64,000 nt of DNA, taken from assembly GCA_015066395.1 (NCBI GenBank), contig SVOL01000005.1, positions 34,671-98,670 on the forward strand, in the 5' to 3' direction. This DNA is from Oscillospiraceae bacterium. Its GTDB lineage: Bacteria; Bacillota; Clostridia; Oscillospirales; Acutalibacteraceae. Under the pieces are notes generated by a model. The model had not been told where the DNA came from and did not search any database. It was given only the letters and a program-made list of their open reading frames with translations. A program made the translations under genes and the position numbers. Shown here piece after piece: positions 3,767 to 12,194 of the stretch (position 1 is the stretch's first letter; the number at the start of each line of letters is the position of its first letter).

Positions 3767-4603
3767 TTATACATTCAGTAATTCTTTTTGTCTTTTCAGC
3801 GAAAGTTTTGATGCAATCTTTTTTATTAACATTGCAATCAATATCATTATATACGCGGCCAAAGTAAACACACCTATGTATATCACAAGGCTTACCGCAA
3901 AAGGTACAAGCGGCTGAACAAGACTGAACAGCGGCAACGACGGTTCACAATGAGGGCTGATAAAGAACATATTGAACTCATCAGTCTCGAGCAGACCGGT
4001 CTTGAACGCGATCTCGTTCATAACTGCCGCTATGGCTACTGCTGCCGCAAAAACAGGAATTGCCTTCAAAACAGTCTTATGCTTTAACGGCACATAACCA
4101 GTGTAAAGCAGATAAACGCCAATCACGATCATAGAACTGTGACAAACCATTGTTTGGATATTGATACCGATAGTATCAATAAACACAGTGTTGGGATAAA
4201 GCATCACACAGACACCTGCAAAGATCGCGTATGACGCCAAAAAAGCACCCAAAGCATTGTGAACCTTTCCCTTTCGGATAATTCCGAACAGTAAACCTGC
4301 ATACATCGGAGTTGAACAGAACTGGAACGGGAAAGCGTACCATTTAAAATCCGAAGTTATAGCGCCGTCGGTAATACTAAAGGTATAGACTATCTGCTTG
4401 TAGACCTCTAAAACAGTAACGAGTATTGCCGTAAAGAATACTATCCTATGTACCTGTTTTTCAGTTCCCTCTTTGAAGAGCCGACACAGCAAGACCGAAG
4501 CCGCAACGGTCAGTATCAGCCACATAATATGAAACCAGCCGTACATAGTAGGTTCAGTCATTTCTACTTCCAGAACCTCAAGAACACTCTTAAAAATATT
4601 CAT
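3767..4603 (-). CDS. YwaF/TMEM164-like integral membrane protein
   Basis: About 7 hydrophobic segments; FPFQFCSTPMYAGLL and 'MVCHSSMIVIGVYL' patterns typical of the family; start M at 4603 has a better RBS (gagggtgg) than 4618. Confidence 0.6.
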   Translation of the reverse strand: MNIFKSVLEVLEVEMTEPTMYGWFHIMWLILTVAASVLLCRLFKEGTEKQVHRIVFFTAILVTVLEVYKQIVYTFSITDGAITSDFKWYAFPFQFCSTPMYAGLLFGIIRKGKVHNALGAFLASYAIFAGVCVMLYPNTVFIDTIGINIQTMVCHSSMIVIGVYLLYTGYVPLKHKTVLKAIPVFAAAVAIAAVMNEIAFKTGLLETDEFNMFFISPHCEPSLPLFSLVQPLVPFAVSLVIYIGVFTLAAYIMILIAMLIKKIASKLSLKRQKELLNV

Positions 4604-4625
4604 TTTATCCACCCTCAAAACAAAT

Positions 4626-4684: not shown

Positions 4685-6091
4685 TTATTTCTCGCAGGAA
4701 TCGTCATATTTAAGATTCGGGAAATACTTGCAGAACTCCTTGAACTCTTTTCTGTAGTCGCCCTCGATCTCAACAAAGTGATGGATATAAGGACCGTCAA
4801 GCAATCTGTCCTCGATCTTGTCGAGATTATCAAACTCAGCCCAGATATAAGTACCGTGAGTCTGCGGACCGGGAACTGTGTGACCGCACAAGGGCAATAC
4901 CATATAGTTACCGCTCTCCTGATCAATACGTGCAACTGTGTATGTGCCGTCCTTACCTCTGAACCACTCACGCTGGTTTACAAGTCGAGCCGTGCTGTCG
5001 GGAGCCTTTACAGAAAGCGGGAAAGGTCCGCAATGCCACAAAAGCTCAGCATTCTTGTTTTCGGGATGGCGGACGGTGAACTCGCCTAAGAAGGGTCTCT
5101 TCTTGCCCAGAGCCGCACTGGTAAGCAACGAAGCGGTAATAGCACAGTGCATATCGCTCTCACAGCTGACATAATAACCCATATCATTGAGCACGCCGAA
5201 TACTGAACACGGGCACAGACCGTCAAACATCTGCGGATATCCTGTCCAGCATTCACTCGACATAACATCTACATTGTAGTCAGCAAAGAGCTTCTTATAT
5301 GTAACGACCAAGGTTGACATTCTCTCAACATAATCGGGAGTGAGGTCATCCATCTGATAGTTGTCGTAGAAGATCTTTTCGACCTCTTTGATCTCATCCT
5401 GCTTTGTTTCCTTAACTTCTTTATAAGCCTGCTCAACAAAAGCAAAGTTAATGGGAATAATGCGGATACCGAACTTCTCCATCAACTCGCCTTCGTTCCA
5501 GATTACCGAGAAGAAAGGCTTGGGACGGGTACCCAACTGACCGACGCGCATACCGCGGAAGTTCTTGACCATACAAGCAACTCTTACAAAGCTGTCAAAG
5601 CCGGTTGCAAATGTATCGGAATCAACGGTGCAGCAGTTGATATGAGAGAAAGGAATGTGATATCTCTGCATCTGACGCGAAAGACCGAACGAACCGCACT
5701 GAGAGTCGGTCGGACGCATACCGTCAACATAGTATTCATCATCAAGCGGAGCCCAGATACAAACGGGCAGATCCATTGCCTTTGCCAAATCGGCAGCAGC
5801 CTCTTCGTTACCGAAGTTGGCGTTGATAATGAAAACTGCGTCAACCTTCTCAGCCTTAAAACGCTCAACAGTAGCGGCAACCGATTCCTCATTATAAATA
5901 AGGTCGTTACAGCCTAAGCCTTTGGTGTCAACGAACTCAACGTTTTCACTCTTAAAGTTCTTTTCGATGTAATCTACAAATCTGTGTCCTCTTTCCTCAG
6001 CGGAGACCCAGGTAAGGAAGGTTTTTGCAGGACGGTTTGTAGCATCACGGCGAAGCGGAACAAGACCGATCTTTACTTTGTAATCAAACAT
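4685..6091 (-). CDS. L-fucose/L-arabinose isomerase-fold family protein
   Basis: MFDYKVKIGLVPLRRD... NANFGNEEAAADLA, SSECWTGYPQMFDGLCPCSV, ESDMHCAITA: fucose-isomerase-like pattern; RBS gaggtg before 6091. Confidence 0.7.
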   Translation of the reverse strand: MFDYKVKIGLVPLRRDATNRPAKTFLTWVSAEERGHRFVDYIEKNFKSENVEFVDTKGLGCNDLIYNEESVAATVERFKAEKVDAVFIINANFGNEEAAADLAKAMDLPVCIWAPLDDEYYVDGMRPTDSQCGSFGLSRQMQRYHIPFSHINCCTVDSDTFATGFDSFVRVACMVKNFRGMRVGQLGTRPKPFFSVIWNEGELMEKFGIRIIPINFAFVEQAYKEVKETKQDEIKEVEKIFYDNYQMDDLTPDYVERMSTLVVTYKKLFADYNVDVMSSECWTGYPQMFDGLCPCSVFGVLNDMGYYVSCESDMHCAITASLLTSAALGKKRPFLGEFTVRHPENKNAELLWHCGPFPLSVKAPDSTARLVNQREWFRGKDGTYTVARIDQESGNYMVLPLCGHTVPGPQTHGTYIWAEFDNLDKIEDRLLDGPYIHHFVEIEGDYRKEFKEFCKYFPNLKYDDSCEK

Positions 6092-6195
6092 AAAAAACAC
6101 CTCTTTGGTTTTTGGTATGTAAATCACTTACATACTATTATAATTATGCTCTTTTTTCCTCTAAAAAGCAACAATTATTTACAAATAAACTCAAA

Positions 6196-7329
6196 TTAAT
6201 CGTCGGAACTAAAGTTACCCAGCTCGTTTTTGGACGCGGCCTTGAGATAAGCATTCACAAAACCGTCAAGATCGCCGTCCATTACCGCACCGACATTGCC
6301 CGATTCAAAACCGGTTCGGTGATCCTTTACAAGAGTATACGGCATAAAGACGTAGGACCTTATCTGTGAACCCCAGGCGATATCCTTCTGAACACCCTTG
6401 ATATCCTCGATCTTGTCAAGATGCTCACGCTCTTTTATCTCCAAAAGCTTGGATTTAAGCATTGTCATTGCGACTTCCCTGTTCTGCAGCTGGCTACGCT
6501 CGTTTTGACAGGCAACAACTATTCCCGTAGGGATATGTGTAATTCGGATAGCAGATTCGGTCTTATTAACATGCTGACCGCCTGCACCGCTTGAACGGTA
6601 GGTATCGACCTTCAAGTCCTCATCGCGAATTTCAATATTAACATCTGCAGTGATCTCAGGCATAACCTCAAGCGAAGCAAACGAAGTGTGTCTGCGACCC
6701 GATGAATCAAACGGCGAGCAACGGACAAGTCGGTGAACACCGTTTTCACCCTTTAAATATCCGTAGGCGTTGATACCGTTGACAGTCAACACAGCACTCT
6801 TAAGACCTGCTTCTTCGCCGTCCAAAAAGTCGACCATATTGACCTTGAAGCCGTGCTGTTCACCCCAATGGGTATACATTCTCACCAGCATCTGGTTCCA
6901 GTCCTGAGCCTCGGTACCGCCTGCACCCGCGTGGAATGTGAGGATGGCGTTGTTAGAGTCATACTCACCGATAAGAAGCGTTGACAAACGCTGTTCCTCA
7001 AGACTTTTCAAGGCCTCGTCAACACCCTCAGTCACCTCATCGAGCATCGAGAGGTCACCCTCTTCATCAGCCATTTCGATGAGCACCAGGGTATCCTCAT
7101 AAAGTGACTGCAACTTCTCATACTTTTCGATTTTTTGTTTTAACTGACTGAGCTTCTGCTGTATTTTTTGAGCATTGGCAAGGTCGTTCCAAAAATCGGG
7201 TGCGGTCGACTGAAGTTCAAGACTCTCGACCTCACGGCGCAAATAATCAAGCCCCAGAGCATCGCCGAGTTCCTTAATATCACTCTCGACAGCCGTCAAT
7301 CGGCTCTTCTGTTCTTCGTACTGAAGCAT
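6196..7329 (-). CDS. prfB: Peptide chain release factor 2
   Basis: SPF tripeptide (VRCSPFDSS) and GGQ (SSGAGGQHVNKTESAIRITH). Confidence 0.95.
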   Translation of the reverse strand: MLQYEEQKSRLTAVESDIKELGDALGLDYLRREVESLELQSTAPDFWNDLANAQKIQQKLSQLKQKIEKYEKLQSLYEDTLVLIEMADEEGDLSMLDEVTEGVDEALKSLEEQRLSTLLIGEYDSNNAILTFHAGAGGTEAQDWNQMLVRMYTHWGEQHGFKVNMVDFLDGEEAGLKSAVLTVNGINAYGYLKGENGVHRLVRCSPFDSSGRRHTSFASLEVMPEITADVNIEIRDEDLKVDTYRSSGAGGQHVNKTESAIRITHIPTGIVVACQNERSQLQNREVAMTMLKSKLLEIKEREHLDKIEDIKGVQKDIAWGSQIRSYVFMPYTLVKDHRTGFESGNVGAVMDGDLDGFVNAYLKAASKNELGNFSSDD

Positions 7330-7343
7330 AAGTTCCTCCTAAT

Positions 7344-8264
7344 TTAAATCTTTTTAACAGCAAAAGCACGCCAATTCTCGCACTCTGCCTCGTCAATTAT
7401 CTCATATCCGTACTTTTTAAAAGCGGCTTTAACATCATCCTCACGGATATCGATTATACCCGAGCAAAGAAACACCGAGTCCTCTTTCATAAACTCTTCA
7501 ACATTGGAAAGCAAAGAGATGATGACATCGGCAACAATATTTGCACAAACAACATCATAGCGTTCCGTTATCTTATCGCAGAGGTCGCCGAGAATAAAGC
7601 TCGCCTTGTTCTCAACTTTGTTGATCTCAGCGTTCTCTTTAGCAACCTTGACCGCGACCGGATCAATATCAACTCCGTCAACCTTCTTAGCACCAAGCAG
7701 TGCCGCGCCGATGCTCAGAATTCCGCTGCCCGAACCGATGTCAAGCAGAGTGCAATCCTGCGATACGTACCTTTCAAGCAGTTCCAAACACATCTTGGTG
7801 GTGGCGTGAGTGCCGGTGCCGAAAGCAGCGCCGGGATCAATGCTTAAGACCACACGGCCGTCATTATTATCATAACTCTCCCAGCTGGGTCTGATCACCA
7901 ACTTTTCACCGATCTCGGTAACTTTAAAAAACCTCTTCCAATTATCGGCCCATTCAGCTTCGCTGATACTGTCGGTCATTATTTCACACTTGATACCGAC
8001 GGCATCATAGCGCGCTCTTAAATATTCAACCGACTCCAACGGATTCTGTTCATCACTCATATAAATATGAATGATGGACACGGTTCTGTCCTTCTTGACC
8101 AGTTCTTCGTCGATAAGATCAATGTGAGCTATCTCCAACGCGTCCTTTTCAAGTTCAGAATAATCCTCGGTATAAATGCCGTACGGCACGACCATATTGG
8201 CAATGGCCTCGGCCGTTTCGGTATCGCTTTGGGCAACCTTTATTTTAATTTCGGTCCAATCCAA
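7344..8264 (-). CDS. prmA: Ribosomal protein L11 methyltransferase
   Basis: DPGAAFGTGTHATTKMCLELLE, DIGSGSGILSIGAALLGA; probable TTG start at 8264 behind GGAGGG. Confidence 0.92.
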   Translation of the reverse strand: MDWTEIKIKVAQSDTETAEAIANMVVPYGIYTEDYSELEKDALEIAHIDLIDEELVKKDRTVSIIHIYMSDEQNPLESVEYLRARYDAVGIKCEIMTDSISEAEWADNWKRFFKVTEIGEKLVIRPSWESYDNNDGRVVLSIDPGAAFGTGTHATTKMCLELLERYVSQDCTLLDIGSGSGILSIGAALLGAKKVDGVDIDPVAVKVAKENAEINKVENKASFILGDLCDKITERYDVVCANIVADVIISLLSNVEEFMKEDSVFLCSGIIDIREDDVKAAFKKYGYEIIDEAECENWRAFAVKKI

Positions 8265-8357
8265 AAGTAACCCTCCAAAACTCATAAATTTCCATCTTCA
8301 TATTGTATCACAAACGCGGCAAAAATCAAACACAAATATATAAATTCTTTAAAATAA

Positions 8358-8386
8358 TTGATTTTTGCGATAAGTTATAGTATAAT
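8358..8386 (+). promoter_or_regulatory. Sigma-A-type promoter
   Basis: TTGATT - 17 nt - TATAAT. Confidence 0.65.
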
Positions 8387-8425
8387 TGGCGTATCAAAAT
8401 GCCATTCCAAAAGGAGTGTTAATTA

Positions 8426-11041
8426 ATGATCTGGCACAGTGCCACTCCCGAAGAGGTTTTAGAAGAGCTGGGCTCCGACCGTGAAAACGGTCTTCCCACC
8501 TCTCAGATCGCTAAGCGATTAAAGCAGTACGGCACCAACCTTTCGGTTCTCGAAAAGGATATAAGTATCAGCAAAGCCATACTTACTCAGGTCAAAAGAC
8601 CGAGTATCATTATACTGTTAAGCCTGCTTGTTATCTTCGTTCTGCGTGAACTTGTAACAGGTAATATGGACTTCACTCTGCCTATAGTCTGTCTGTTTTT
8701 GATACTCGTTAAGGCGGCCTGCTGTGTTTTTTTGGAATACCGTTCGAGGAATATGATGGCTTCACTCATCAACCGCGTCAAGACCTCTGCAAGGGTCGTT
8801 CGCGGCGGCCGTGAGGAGGTCGTACCGTCCGAAGGCATCGTACCGGGCGACATATTGAAGCTCACCGAGGGTGACTACATACCGGCCGATGCAAGACTTA
8901 TTGAGTCTATAGGACTGCGTTGCGATGAAGCCGCTCTTTATAATGAAAAAGAAACCGTTGTTATACCTAAAATCGCCGAAGATATCCACGAAGATCACAC
9001 ACCGCTTTCAGAGCGGACAAATATGATCTACTGCGGCTGTCATATTCTGACCGGTGATGCACTGGCGGTCGTCACCGAAACCGGTGAAGAAGCCGAAATA
9101 CGCCGAGCCGTTGTCAAAGATAAGGTCTTCTCTAACAAAGGCATTCAGGACAAGATCGCCAACCGCTACAGCGATTTTTTCAAGATCTTCAACGCTTTTG
9201 CCGTGTTCGGCTGTTTTCTCATCCTTTTCTTTGGAACTTTAGCGACCGACGGCACTATTGGCTGGGGCAAGTTTTTAGAGGCTTTGATTGCGGCAGTTTG
9301 CTTCTTCATTGCCGTTGTTCCGGGCAGTTTTGCTACCCGTATAGCCTCACTTTTGGCTCTCGGTATCAAACGCTTTGAGAAGGACAGGGCTTCGATCTTT
9401 AACGCTCAGACTATCGAAAAACTGTCGGGTGTGACCGTTATCTGTGCCGACAAAACAGGTATTTTGACCCAAAACAAGATGTCCCTCAAAAAGGTTTATG
9501 ACGGCGAGCAGATAATCGATCTTGATTACGATTCGATCACCAAAAACGGTGAGATCGCTCTTCGATTTGCCGCGCTCTGCTGTGACGACAATGAAGAGTT
9601 AACCGACCACACCGAAGAAGCACTTATAACCGCTTCATCGCGGTACTTAAATATATACAAAAGTGATTTTGATGCCGAATTCCCGAGGCTCGCTTGCATT
9701 CCGCTGACACCGGAACGCAAGATAAAGACCACTGTAAACATGATCGACGGACGTGTTTTTGTAATTGTCCGCGGTGCTCCCGATATAATTCTCGAAAAAT
9801 GTGTGGGTGCCGATAACAATAAGATCACCGAGGCATACGAACAGCTATGCAACGAGGGTATGCGAGTGCTGGCTATTTCTTATAAAACGCTCGACGCTAT
9901 GCCCACAAATCCCAACGAAGAGATTTTGGAAAACGAACTGCAGTTTTTGGGTCTTTTAGGGTTATCCGACCGCGAACGCCGCGGCATCAACAAGGATATA
10001 AGCCTTTGCAAAAAAGCCGGCATTTCAACCGTTATGTTTACAGGCGACCACATCAATACCGCCGCATCCATAGCCCAGAAAATGGATATTTTAGGTGCAG
10101 ATGACCTGTGTGTCACCGGTGAGCAGATCGCTTCTCTTTCGGATGCTGAACTGACTGCCGTCGCACCTAAAATAAAGGTTTGTGTAAGATTTTCGGCTGA
10201 TGACCGCATAAGAATGGTCAAAGCCTTGCAGGCAAACAATGAGACCGTGCTCATTACTGCTGACAGTGCCGCCAACTTCGCCCCGATGGCTTATGCCGAT
10301 GTCGGCTGTGCCATGGGCAAAAGCGGCACAGACGTTGCCAAGGGTAATGCCGACGTCTGTGTTTATGATGACAGTTTTTCGACCATCATAAAGGCCATTC
10401 GCAACGCGCGCGGTATCTTCGGCAACTTTATTAAGTACATCAACTATTACGTTGCAATGTGCACCTGCCTGCTTATTGTCCTGCTCTTTAATATGCTGGT
10501 ATTCAGAGCGATCGTCCCTTCCCAGTCAGTCATTCTGCTCGGTGCTGTTTTTGCACTTCTTTTCCCCATCGCGTCCATCGGTTTTGAGACTGCCGACTCA
10601 GGCATTATGAAACAGACACCGAGGACCGTCGGCGAAAAACTGTTCGGACTGCGTGACACCATTATTTCAGTAGTAAAGGGAATCGCTGTTTCAGTACCGC
10701 CGATTTTGAGCTATCTTTTAAACTGTGACGATCCGTCGGTTGCCACCACTGTATTCTTAAGCCTTGTAACGTCTCTTGTATACTTTATGTTGACCGATCG
10801 CTCGACCGATTTCGCATTCAAACGTATTGCACACAACCGTTTTCTTTTCAGTTTTTCGATAATCTGTATTGTTCTTGCAGGTATTATCGCCACGACCGAT
10901 CTCAGCTACCTGTTCGATATGGCCACAGTCAGCGCAGAAGGCTTAGTGACCTCGATCCTTTCGCCGTTGCTGATATTGATCGTGTTTGAAGCGGTCAAGA
11001 TCTATAAAAACGTTTTCCGTAAAAACAACAAAAACTCCTGA
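8426..11041 (+). CDS. Degenerate P2-type cation ATPase homologue
   Basis: P-type ATPase layout with CADKTGILTQN phosphorylation motif, RGAPDIIL and FTGDHINTA; other catalytic and ion-site motifs altered (see findings). Confidence 0.85.
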   Translation: MIWHSATPEEVLEELGSDRENGLPTSQIAKRLKQYGTNLSVLEKDISISKAILTQVKRPSIIILLSLLVIFVLRELVTGNMDFTLPIVCLFLILVKAACCVFLEYRSRNMMASLINRVKTSARVVRGGREEVVPSEGIVPGDILKLTEGDYIPADARLIESIGLRCDEAALYNEKETVVIPKIAEDIHEDHTPLSERTNMIYCGCHILTGDALAVVTETGEEAEIRRAVVKDKVFSNKGIQDKIANRYSDFFKIFNAFAVFGCFLILFFGTLATDGTIGWGKFLEALIAAVCFFIAVVPGSFATRIASLLALGIKRFEKDRASIFNAQTIEKLSGVTVICADKTGILTQNKMSLKKVYDGEQIIDLDYDSITKNGEIALRFAALCCDDNEELTDHTEEALITASSRYLNIYKSDFDAEFPRLACIPLTPERKIKTTVNMIDGRVFVIVRGAPDIILEKCVGADNNKITEAYEQLCNEGMRVLAISYKTLDAMPTNPNEEILENELQFLGLLGLSDRERRGINKDISLCKKAGISTVMFTGDHINTAASIAQKMDILGADDLCVTGEQIASLSDAELTAVAPKIKVCVRFSADDRIRMVKALQANNETVLITADSAANFAPMAYADVGCAMGKSGTDVAKGNADVCVYDDSFSTIIKAIRNARGIFGNFIKYINYYVAMCTCLLIVLLFNMLVFRAIVPSQSVILLGAVFALLFPIASIGFETADSGIMKQTPRTVGEKLFGLRDTIISVVKGIAVSVPPILSYLLNCDDPSVATTVFLSLVTSLVYFMLTDRSTDFAFKRIAHNRFLFSFSIICIVLAGIIATTDLSYLFDMATVSAEGLVTSILSPLLILIVFEAVKIYKNVFRKNNKNS

Positions 11042-11075: not shown

Positions 11076-11705
11076 TTAAAGTGTTCCGAAAATGCGGTCA
11101 CCTGCATCACCGAGACCGGGAATAATGTAGGCGTGATCGTTGAGATAGAGATCCTTGCCCGCACAGTAGACCTTGACATCGGGATGAGCCTTTGTCAACG
11201 CCTCCAAGCCTTCGGGTGCAGCCAGAATGCACATAAACTTAATGCTCTTCGGGTTATACGATTTGATCCTTGTTACCGCGTCGATCGCTGAGCCGCCGGT
11301 AGCAAGCATCGGATCGAGAATAATGACCTCGCGTTCGGGAACATCGCTCGGCAATTTGCAGTAGTACTCAACCGGCTCCTTGGTTTCGGGGTCGCGGTAC
11401 ATACCAATATGACCTACCTTGGCACCGGGAACGAGCGACAGAACGCCGTCGACCATACCGAGTCCCGCTCTCAAGATCGGAACAAACGCAAGCGTTTTAC
11501 CTGCGATCATTTTGGTATCGGCTGTAGCTAAAGGAGTCTCTACCTTAACGTCGGTCAACGGCAGATCTCTTGTTGCTTCATAGCACATCAACGTGGCTAT
11601 TTCACTGACAAGGGCACGGAATTCTTTAGTGCCGGTCGATTTATCTCTGAGTATTGCGAGTTTGTGCTGAATCAACGGATGATCAAAAATGCAAACGTTA
11701 TCCAT
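11076..11705 (-). CDS. upp: Uracil phosphoribosyltransferase
   Basis: [28 protein letters not shown] motif, GLGDAGDR. Confidence 0.95.
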
Positions 11706-11720
11706 ATAAAACTTGCCTCC

Positions 11721-12194
11721 TTAAAGATTTTCAATATCCATGACAGCGGAGACACGACGATCGTGACGTCCACCCTCATATTTGGTATTAATAAAAAGAT
11801 CCACCATCTCTAAAGCAACACCGGGACCTATCACTCTGCCGCCGAGGCAAAGCACGTTAGAGTCATTGTGAAGTCTTGTATATTTGGCCGAGAAGGTCTC
11901 CGAACAAGCGGCGGCACGAATGCCTTTTACCTTATTTGCGGCGATCGACATACCGATACCCGTTCCGCAAACGAGGATTCCGAGCTTTGCCTCACCGGAC
12001 TTTATAGCACCTGTTACCTTCAAAGCGATCTCGGGATAATCGACCGAATTTGAGTCATAACAGCCAAAATCCCTGACCTCAACTCCCTGCTCTTTCAAAT
12101 GTTCAATGATGCTCTGCTTCAATTCAAATCCGCCGTGGTCAGAACCTATTGCAAGCACATCACCCTTGTTAAAATCCGCCATATTTATCTCCAT
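11721..12194 (-). CDS. rpiB: Ribose-5-phosphate isomerase B
   Basis: IGSDHGGFELK, DFGCY, VDYPEIA, GTGIGMSIAANKVKGIRAA. Confidence 0.95.
   Translation of the reverse strand: MEINMADFNKGDVLAIGSDHGGFELKQSIIEHLKEQGVEVRDFGCYDSNSVDYPEIALKVTGAIKSGEAKLGILVCGTGIGMSIAANKVKGIRAAACSETFSAKYTRLHNDSNVLCLGGRVIGPGVALEMVDLFINTKYEGGRHDRRVSAVMDIENL

Follow-up and report, generated by a model that had tools for sequence, protein, structure and literature searches.

The question raised by this locus is whether a protein that is built like an ion pump still works as one. The window, by which we mean the whole 64,000-nucleotide stretch of DNA analyzed here, carries an intact ORF that is open over 871 codons (Table 1). 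The original prediction was that its product has a P2-type fold and that, with most catalytic and ion-site motifs lost from an intact ORF behind a good promoter, it would be a pseudo-ATPase with a regulatory or sensing role and not a decaying gene. The fold was borne out. The Pfam domains run in the order Cation_ATPase_N, E1-E2_ATPase, Cation_ATPase, and Cation_ATPase_C; the ORF scored 141 bits with the P-type ATPase superfamily model TIGR01494, passing its cut-off of 62.3; and the AlphaFold and Foldseek matches agreed. The frame is intact, as predicted, and is open in three sister species as well.

The best NCBIfam model for the ORF was that of the PMR1-type Ca2+ pump (TIGR01522), at 319.6 bits, far below the curated cut-off of 798.3 bits for this equivalog, and the nearest solved structures by sequence were LMCA1 of Listeria (E 3e-97), then human SPCA1 and SERCA. 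The product is therefore a P2A-type protein that lies outside the functional family, and a plain profile match, which would label it a Ca2+ pump, calls for caution in annotation. Judged from its nesting in the tree and its best matches (LMCA1, SPCA1), it descends from the P2A lineage. The AlphaFold model (pLDDT 86, pTM 0.81) matched P-type ATPases in Foldseek, the closest being E1-like states of SPCA1, LMCA1, and SERCA, and its TM-score with the E1-Ca state of LMCA1 was 0.85-0.86. We dropped the idea of an E1-locked state: a canonical relative modelled from the same 40 sequences was equally E1-like, so the conformation of the model supports no claim on locking.

Table 1. Features of the window protein gene and its surroundings (window positions; residue numbers after the arrows and in bare form are those of the window protein).
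Feature	Position	Strand	Basis or remark
P2A-type P-type ATPase homologue, 871 aa; TM bundle with A, N, and P domains	8426..11041	+	Pfam, NCBIfam, structure matches, AlphaFold
Promoter: AAAATAATTGATTTTT block, inverted repeat AAAAT..ATTTT overlapping -35 TTGATT; -10 TATAAT	8351..8386	+	conserved in all four genus members
Ribosome-binding site AAGGAG, conserved as GGAG	8411..8416	+	
K96 in M2, invariant in genus	8711..8713	+	Asn in 94/98 canonical relatives
YNEKE for TGES(E): T->Y, G->N, E kept (E174), S->K	8939..8953	+	alignment, 98 canonical relatives
M4 PGSF for PEGL; E309-equivalent = G300	9320..9331	+	Gly also in G003, Glu in G001 and G002
R305 in M4, invariant in genus	9338..9340	+	I/T/V in canonical pumps
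DKTGI phospho-acceptor motif, Asp342	9449..9463	+	DKTGT in three sisters
L427 for adenine-stacking Phe (F487, SERCA numbering)	9704..9706	+	alignment, 98 canonical relatives
R449 for KGA lysine (K515, SERCA numbering)	9770..9772	+	alignment, 98 canonical relatives
DRER for DPPR	9968..9979	+	alignment
TGD (HAD motif II region), kept	10040..10048	+	alignment
R594 for HAD motif III lysine (K684, SERCA numbering)	10205..10207	+	alignment, 98 canonical relatives
TADSAAN for TGDGVND; D613 kept (= D703), N706->A, D707->N	10256..10276	+	alignment, 98 canonical relatives
M5 ion-site positions lost: N768->C679, E771->L682	10460..10471	+	alignment
M6 ion-site positions lost: N796->A707, T799->A710, D800->L711	10544..10558	+	alignment
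prmA (ribosomal protein L11 methyltransferase), divergent neighbour, locus marker	7344..8285	-	
prfB (release factor 2), locus marker	6196..7329	-	
upp and rpiB, convergent neighbours, other side	11076..12194	-	

Four members of the genus were sampled, that of the window (G000) and G001, G002, and G003. Each of the other three genomes has an intact orthologue with 55-61% identity to the window protein, and the four share 55-72% amino-acid identity among themselves. A profile of the four, run against 398 genomes of the family, gave about 1670-1715 bits for these four and at most 698 bits for all else, so the type is restricted to the genus in this sample. P0001 as a lone query had no match in the genome contigs; profile A1 recovered the same three sisters and distant relatives; no relatives were found in the viral contigs scanned. 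Common to all four orthologues are LYNEKE at TGES, TADSAAN at TGDGVND, RGAPD at KGAPD, IPL at IPF, Arg in place of the motif III lysine, and an M6 that is hydrophobic where NLVTD is expected. At the replaced sites, the ancestral residue is shared by 97-100% of 98 canonical relatives. The new motifs rank among the most conserved stretches (LYNEKE invariant at 6/6 positions, TADSAANxAPM at 10/11), while 42% of all columns are invariant across the four. Because the same replacements occur in three independent genomes of the same genus, chance and sequencing error are ruled out.

Motif positions were assigned by column in a 127-sequence alignment, which revealed no intact TGES, PEGL, GDGVND, or NLVTD elsewhere in the protein. 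The strings quoted in the original prediction are all found in the ORF where it had placed them: YNEK at aa 172-175 (nt 8939-8950), PGSF at aa 299-302, CADKTGILTQN from nt 9443, FTGDHINTA from nt 10037, TADSAANFAPM from nt 10256, and LLGAVFALLFPIASIG from nt 10535, at the expected NLVTD region of M6. What had been read from them held in part. The TGES signature of the dephosphorylation loop is gone from all four species, but its Glu survives, alone of the motif, with E174 aligning to the catalytic Glu in every one of them. Likewise, the TGDGVNDAPAL hinge is replaced in all four, the hinge/Mg2+ motif GDGxND reading ADSAAN, but the first Asp stays (D613, aligned with D703 throughout). The change of DKTGT to DKTGI is true of the window, whereas the other three species have DKTGT; the Asp, Lys, Thr, and Gly of this phosphorylation motif are invariant in the four.

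The roles of individual SERCA residues, such as D703 in binding Mg2+, the TGES Glu in catalysis, F487 in stacking on adenine, and Asp707, are general knowledge for the family. Kept by position in the window protein are D342, K343, T344, T539-G540-D541, D613, E174, R480, and R431; replaced are the Thr, Gly, and Ser of TGES, hinge Gly702, Gly704, Asn706, and Asp707, the DPPR prolines, F487, and both K515 and K684 (each to Arg). The predicted loss of most catalytic motifs is thus correct for the signatures, whereas the aligned columns still show DKTG with its phospho-acceptor Asp, TGD, the A-domain Glu, and the first motif-IV Asp. At its phosphate end, the active site has changed only in part. 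Since those residues are kept, phosphorylation would still be possible, and ATP/Mg binding or aspartyl phosphorylation may persist.

Ca2+ site II (the M4 Glu and the M6 Asn and Asp) is lost, with the M4 Glu kept in two of the four species. PEGL reads PGSF in the window, as predicted, but the sisters read PGSL, PEKL, or PENL. The predicted loss of NLVTD from M6 was found in all four orthologues, where the Asp position is Leu and the Asn position A, A, S, and S; the T799-equivalent is still Thr in two sister species. M5 and M6 are without any acidic residue, and the membrane core has gained two invariant basic residues, K96 and R305. With the cation ligands lost and new basic residues in M2 and M4, the cation pathway looks disabled, and cation transport has very probably been lost.

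We estimated dN and dS by NG86 in pairs of genus orthologues, with the canonical paralogue of the same species as the control. For the orthologues of the window protein, dN was 0.21-0.38 and dS 2.2-3.5 where computable; dN/dS was 0.08-0.16, a rough value because dS is saturated. The canonical paralogue gave 0.06-0.12, and the dN of the window-type protein was about 1.4-1.7 times that of this paralogue. In the canonical paralogue, conservation was much stronger in M3-M6 than in the N domain (odds ratio ~0.2, p < 1e-6), and no part of that pump was under tighter constraint than the M3-M6 ion path. The same comparison in the window-type protein gave an odds ratio of 1.8 (p ~0.02) for G000-G001 and G000-G002, and 0.95 for G001-G002. 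Relative to the canonical pump, M3-M6 accepted 3.5-3.9 times the changes and the N domain 0.76-0.97 times. The constraint has shifted: M3-M6 is relaxed 3.5-4-fold, and the N domain has stayed as tightly constrained as that of the pump.

The good promoter of the original prediction is conserved in all four genus members, and its AAAATAATTGATTTTT block and TATAAT are kept even in G001, whose upstream neighbour differs. The AT-rich inverted repeat over the -35 box (window 8351-8366) is conserved and may be an operator. As a regulon marker the promoter element was set aside; elsewhere in the genome, its single weak match lay in front of an AzlC-like ORF. No operon partner was found at the locus, where the flanking genes are housekeeping genes on the opposite strand. 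Farther along that strand lie a gene for a 480-aa protein (window 4685-6127), 74-87% identical in two sister species and with no Pfam-A match at E 0.001, and one for a TMEM164-family membrane protein (window 3767-4618).

The window gene occupies the prmA locus, where other genera have a canonical pump. A fully canonical P2A pump (L040) lies between rpiB and prfB/prmA in a sister lineage (G012); it is the positional orthologue of the window gene, and its product is 33% identical to the window protein but has all pump motifs intact. In G080, too, a canonical P2A pump adjoins prmA, and partly altered forms adjoin prmA/prfB in G095, G207, and the isolate SIG570, with TGSH, TESH, and TGET for TGES and a hinge of TGDSVDD or VGSKIDD. 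All non-canonical forms in the tree group in one clade (100/99), to which the canonical G012 pump is sister (99/98); a long stem (1.12 changes per site) leads to the four genus members, whose own branches are short. The long branches make details within the non-canonical clade unsafe. Tree and synteny support the order from canonical to altered. Three proteins in the slot beside prmA/prfB (L143, L162, and L073) resemble the window protein in having the TGES Glu or hinge residues altered, but they keep the hinge Asp707, and their cation site is intact in L143, lost in L162, and mixed in L073. L143, together with a group at a yqeG-like locus, suggests that in some lineages TGES or hinge residues changed while the cation site stayed intact.

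Among characterized proteins, LMCA1 (lmo0841; PDB 6zhf/9evc) is the best relative in sequence and structure. It pumps Ca2+ and has Glu292, Asn716, Asp720, TGES, and GDGVND (PMC11977196). The window protein shares its domain order, DKTG, and TGD and has equivalents of E169 and R491, but the other elements just named are replaced or lost, except for the TGES Glu and the first hinge Asp. The closest known analogue would be human TMEM94/ERMA, which has DKQGI for DKTGT and GSSANL for GDGVND and lacks TGES (PMC13322241), a whole P-type fold with the same kind of motif degeneracy. We liken the two by this degeneracy; TMEM94, which was not among the listed sequence or Foldseek matches, is no close relative in sequence but a eukaryotic ER protein with another N-domain region, and it differs from the bacterial protein, in which the A-domain Glu and the first motif-IV Asp are both present. 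The status of TMEM94 as a pump is disputed: one group reported D427-dependent Mg2+ uptake (PMC13322241), and another measured AMPPCP binding in the micromolar range but neither ATPase activity nor a cycle (PMC12134183). At issue is whether the P-type ATPase fold can persist in a protein that does not pump, and on this the bacterial case offers ordered losses at one locus, conserved replacements, and a canonical paralogue as a same-cell control in three of the four species. KdpB, in which phosphorylation of the TGES serine shuts a P-type ATPase (PMC7535926), is a precedent for shutting such an enzyme at this loop, although there a reversible modification acts on an active pump, whereas the change in the window protein is fixed in its sequence. 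A limited literature search found no bacterial pseudo-P-type ATPase, although one may already have been described.

In our reading, the window protein corresponds by position to a canonical P2A (Ca2+-type) pump, of which it is the orthologue, but has lost cation transport and been retained for a new, non-pumping role, as a sensor or scaffold reporting nucleotide or phosphorylation, with a probability of about 0.6. That the protein is non-canonical and probably non-pumping is well supported, and that it is a sensor or regulator moderately so. The sequences show that M5/M6 no longer have a cation site, that two invariant basic residues have entered the membrane core, and that a new set, fixed across the genus, has replaced the coupling residues of the A, P, and N domains. 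Purifying selection has kept the phosphate/Mg end (D342, T344, T539-G540-D541, D613, and E174) and the N domain. The cytosolic headpiece would still bind nucleotide, or phosphorylate slowly at D342, and change conformation without ion coupling or normal turnover, and its state would report nucleotide or phosphorylation status to a putative partner protein or the membrane. The protein is probably a nucleotide-binding membrane sensor or regulator in this gut bacterium and its sister species, and the regulatory or sensing role of the original prediction can reasonably be inferred. A bolder form of this proposal, which we put forward tentatively, is that a P2A pump, by stepwise loss at one locus, became a membrane switch that no longer transports but can still be phosphorylated. 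It would serve as an aspartyl-phosphate signalling receptor, and living relatives would still display the intermediates (canonical, dephosphorylation-deficient, and ion-site-less).

The main rival is a still-active P-type ATPase with a new non-cation substrate, such as a lipid, an anion, or an organic molecule, in which the odd motifs tune a working cycle. We regard it as a possible but rather unlikely explanation. The buried Lys and Arg might suit an anionic substrate, some constraint persists in the membrane core, and two species keep the M4 Glu; in the headpiece, D342, T344, TGD, D613, E174, R480, and R431 are kept by position, and the Lys-to-Arg change in HAD motif III is conservative. TMEM94/ERMA, according to one group, transports Mg2+ without TGES or GDGVND (PMC13322241). 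However, the would-be substrate path, M3-M6, is what has relaxed most, and the (T/D)GES-type loop and GDGxND are both replaced, along with F487, K515, and the DPPR prolines. To our knowledge, P-type ATPases with non-cation substrates (P4, P5) keep both the (T/D)GES-type loop and GDGxND.

Another possibility is that the protein joins the cell's own canonical Ca2+ pump in a hetero-oligomer, as a pseudo-subunit that is its dominant partner or inhibitor, and G000, G001, and G002 do have both proteins. In the 97%-complete assembly of G003, however, the window-type protein was the only P2A-type protein found and no canonical P2A Ca2+ pump was found, although the ~3% incompleteness leaves some doubt. 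Because G003 apparently lacks that pump, an obligatory inhibitor of it is unlikely, and we consider this explanation improbable. Decay, with the gene caught before its first frameshift, is more improbable still: the faster evolution than in the canonical paralogue and the DKTGI confined to the window would fit it, but the gene is intact in four species at 55-72% identity, with dN/dS ~0.1, a conserved promoter, and identical replacement motifs. Neither a broken frame nor the signal of a relaxed pseudogene was seen. By this pattern, selection is for a different job and not toward decay; the preference of the original prediction for a pseudo-ATPase is well supported by the genus-wide motifs, dN/dS, promoter, inverted constraint, and cation-site loss. 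It is scarcely credible that this is a normal Ca2+ pump and that visual reading or the alignment put its motifs in the wrong place. Its overall fold and its DKTG and TGD are typical, but the 127-sequence alignment, the score of 319.6 against 798.3 bits, and the consistent replacement in all orthologues speak against such an error.

Other altered relatives were observed. A second P2A clade (L062, L063, L064, L066, L067, L069, L071, L076, L079, and L084) lies at another locus, downstream of leuS-like and YqeG-like genes, named by eye from their ORFs; its members have TGVE, TGDD, or SGSE for TGES, DKTGV(F/L)T, and TGDSxxD, with the cation-site motifs mostly intact, and are possibly Ca2+-binding, dephosphorylation-deficient proteins. 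Three further P2A-like ORFs (L065:4438-7053, L072:2226-4886, and L085:8001-10661) have lost the cation site and have altered TGES, M4, and hinge motifs; L065 and L085 lie near a spo0A-like gene, again named by eye, and this degenerate lineage is perhaps the nearest to the genus of the window. Poribacteria contain P-type ATPase-like ORFs (L124, L125, L128, and L129) with DEVG or DEIG for DKTG and without TGES and GDGxND, apparently independent pseudo-ATPases. Two very divergent relatives, L126:7977-10430 and L133:495-3119, have DKGG or have lost DKTG wholly.
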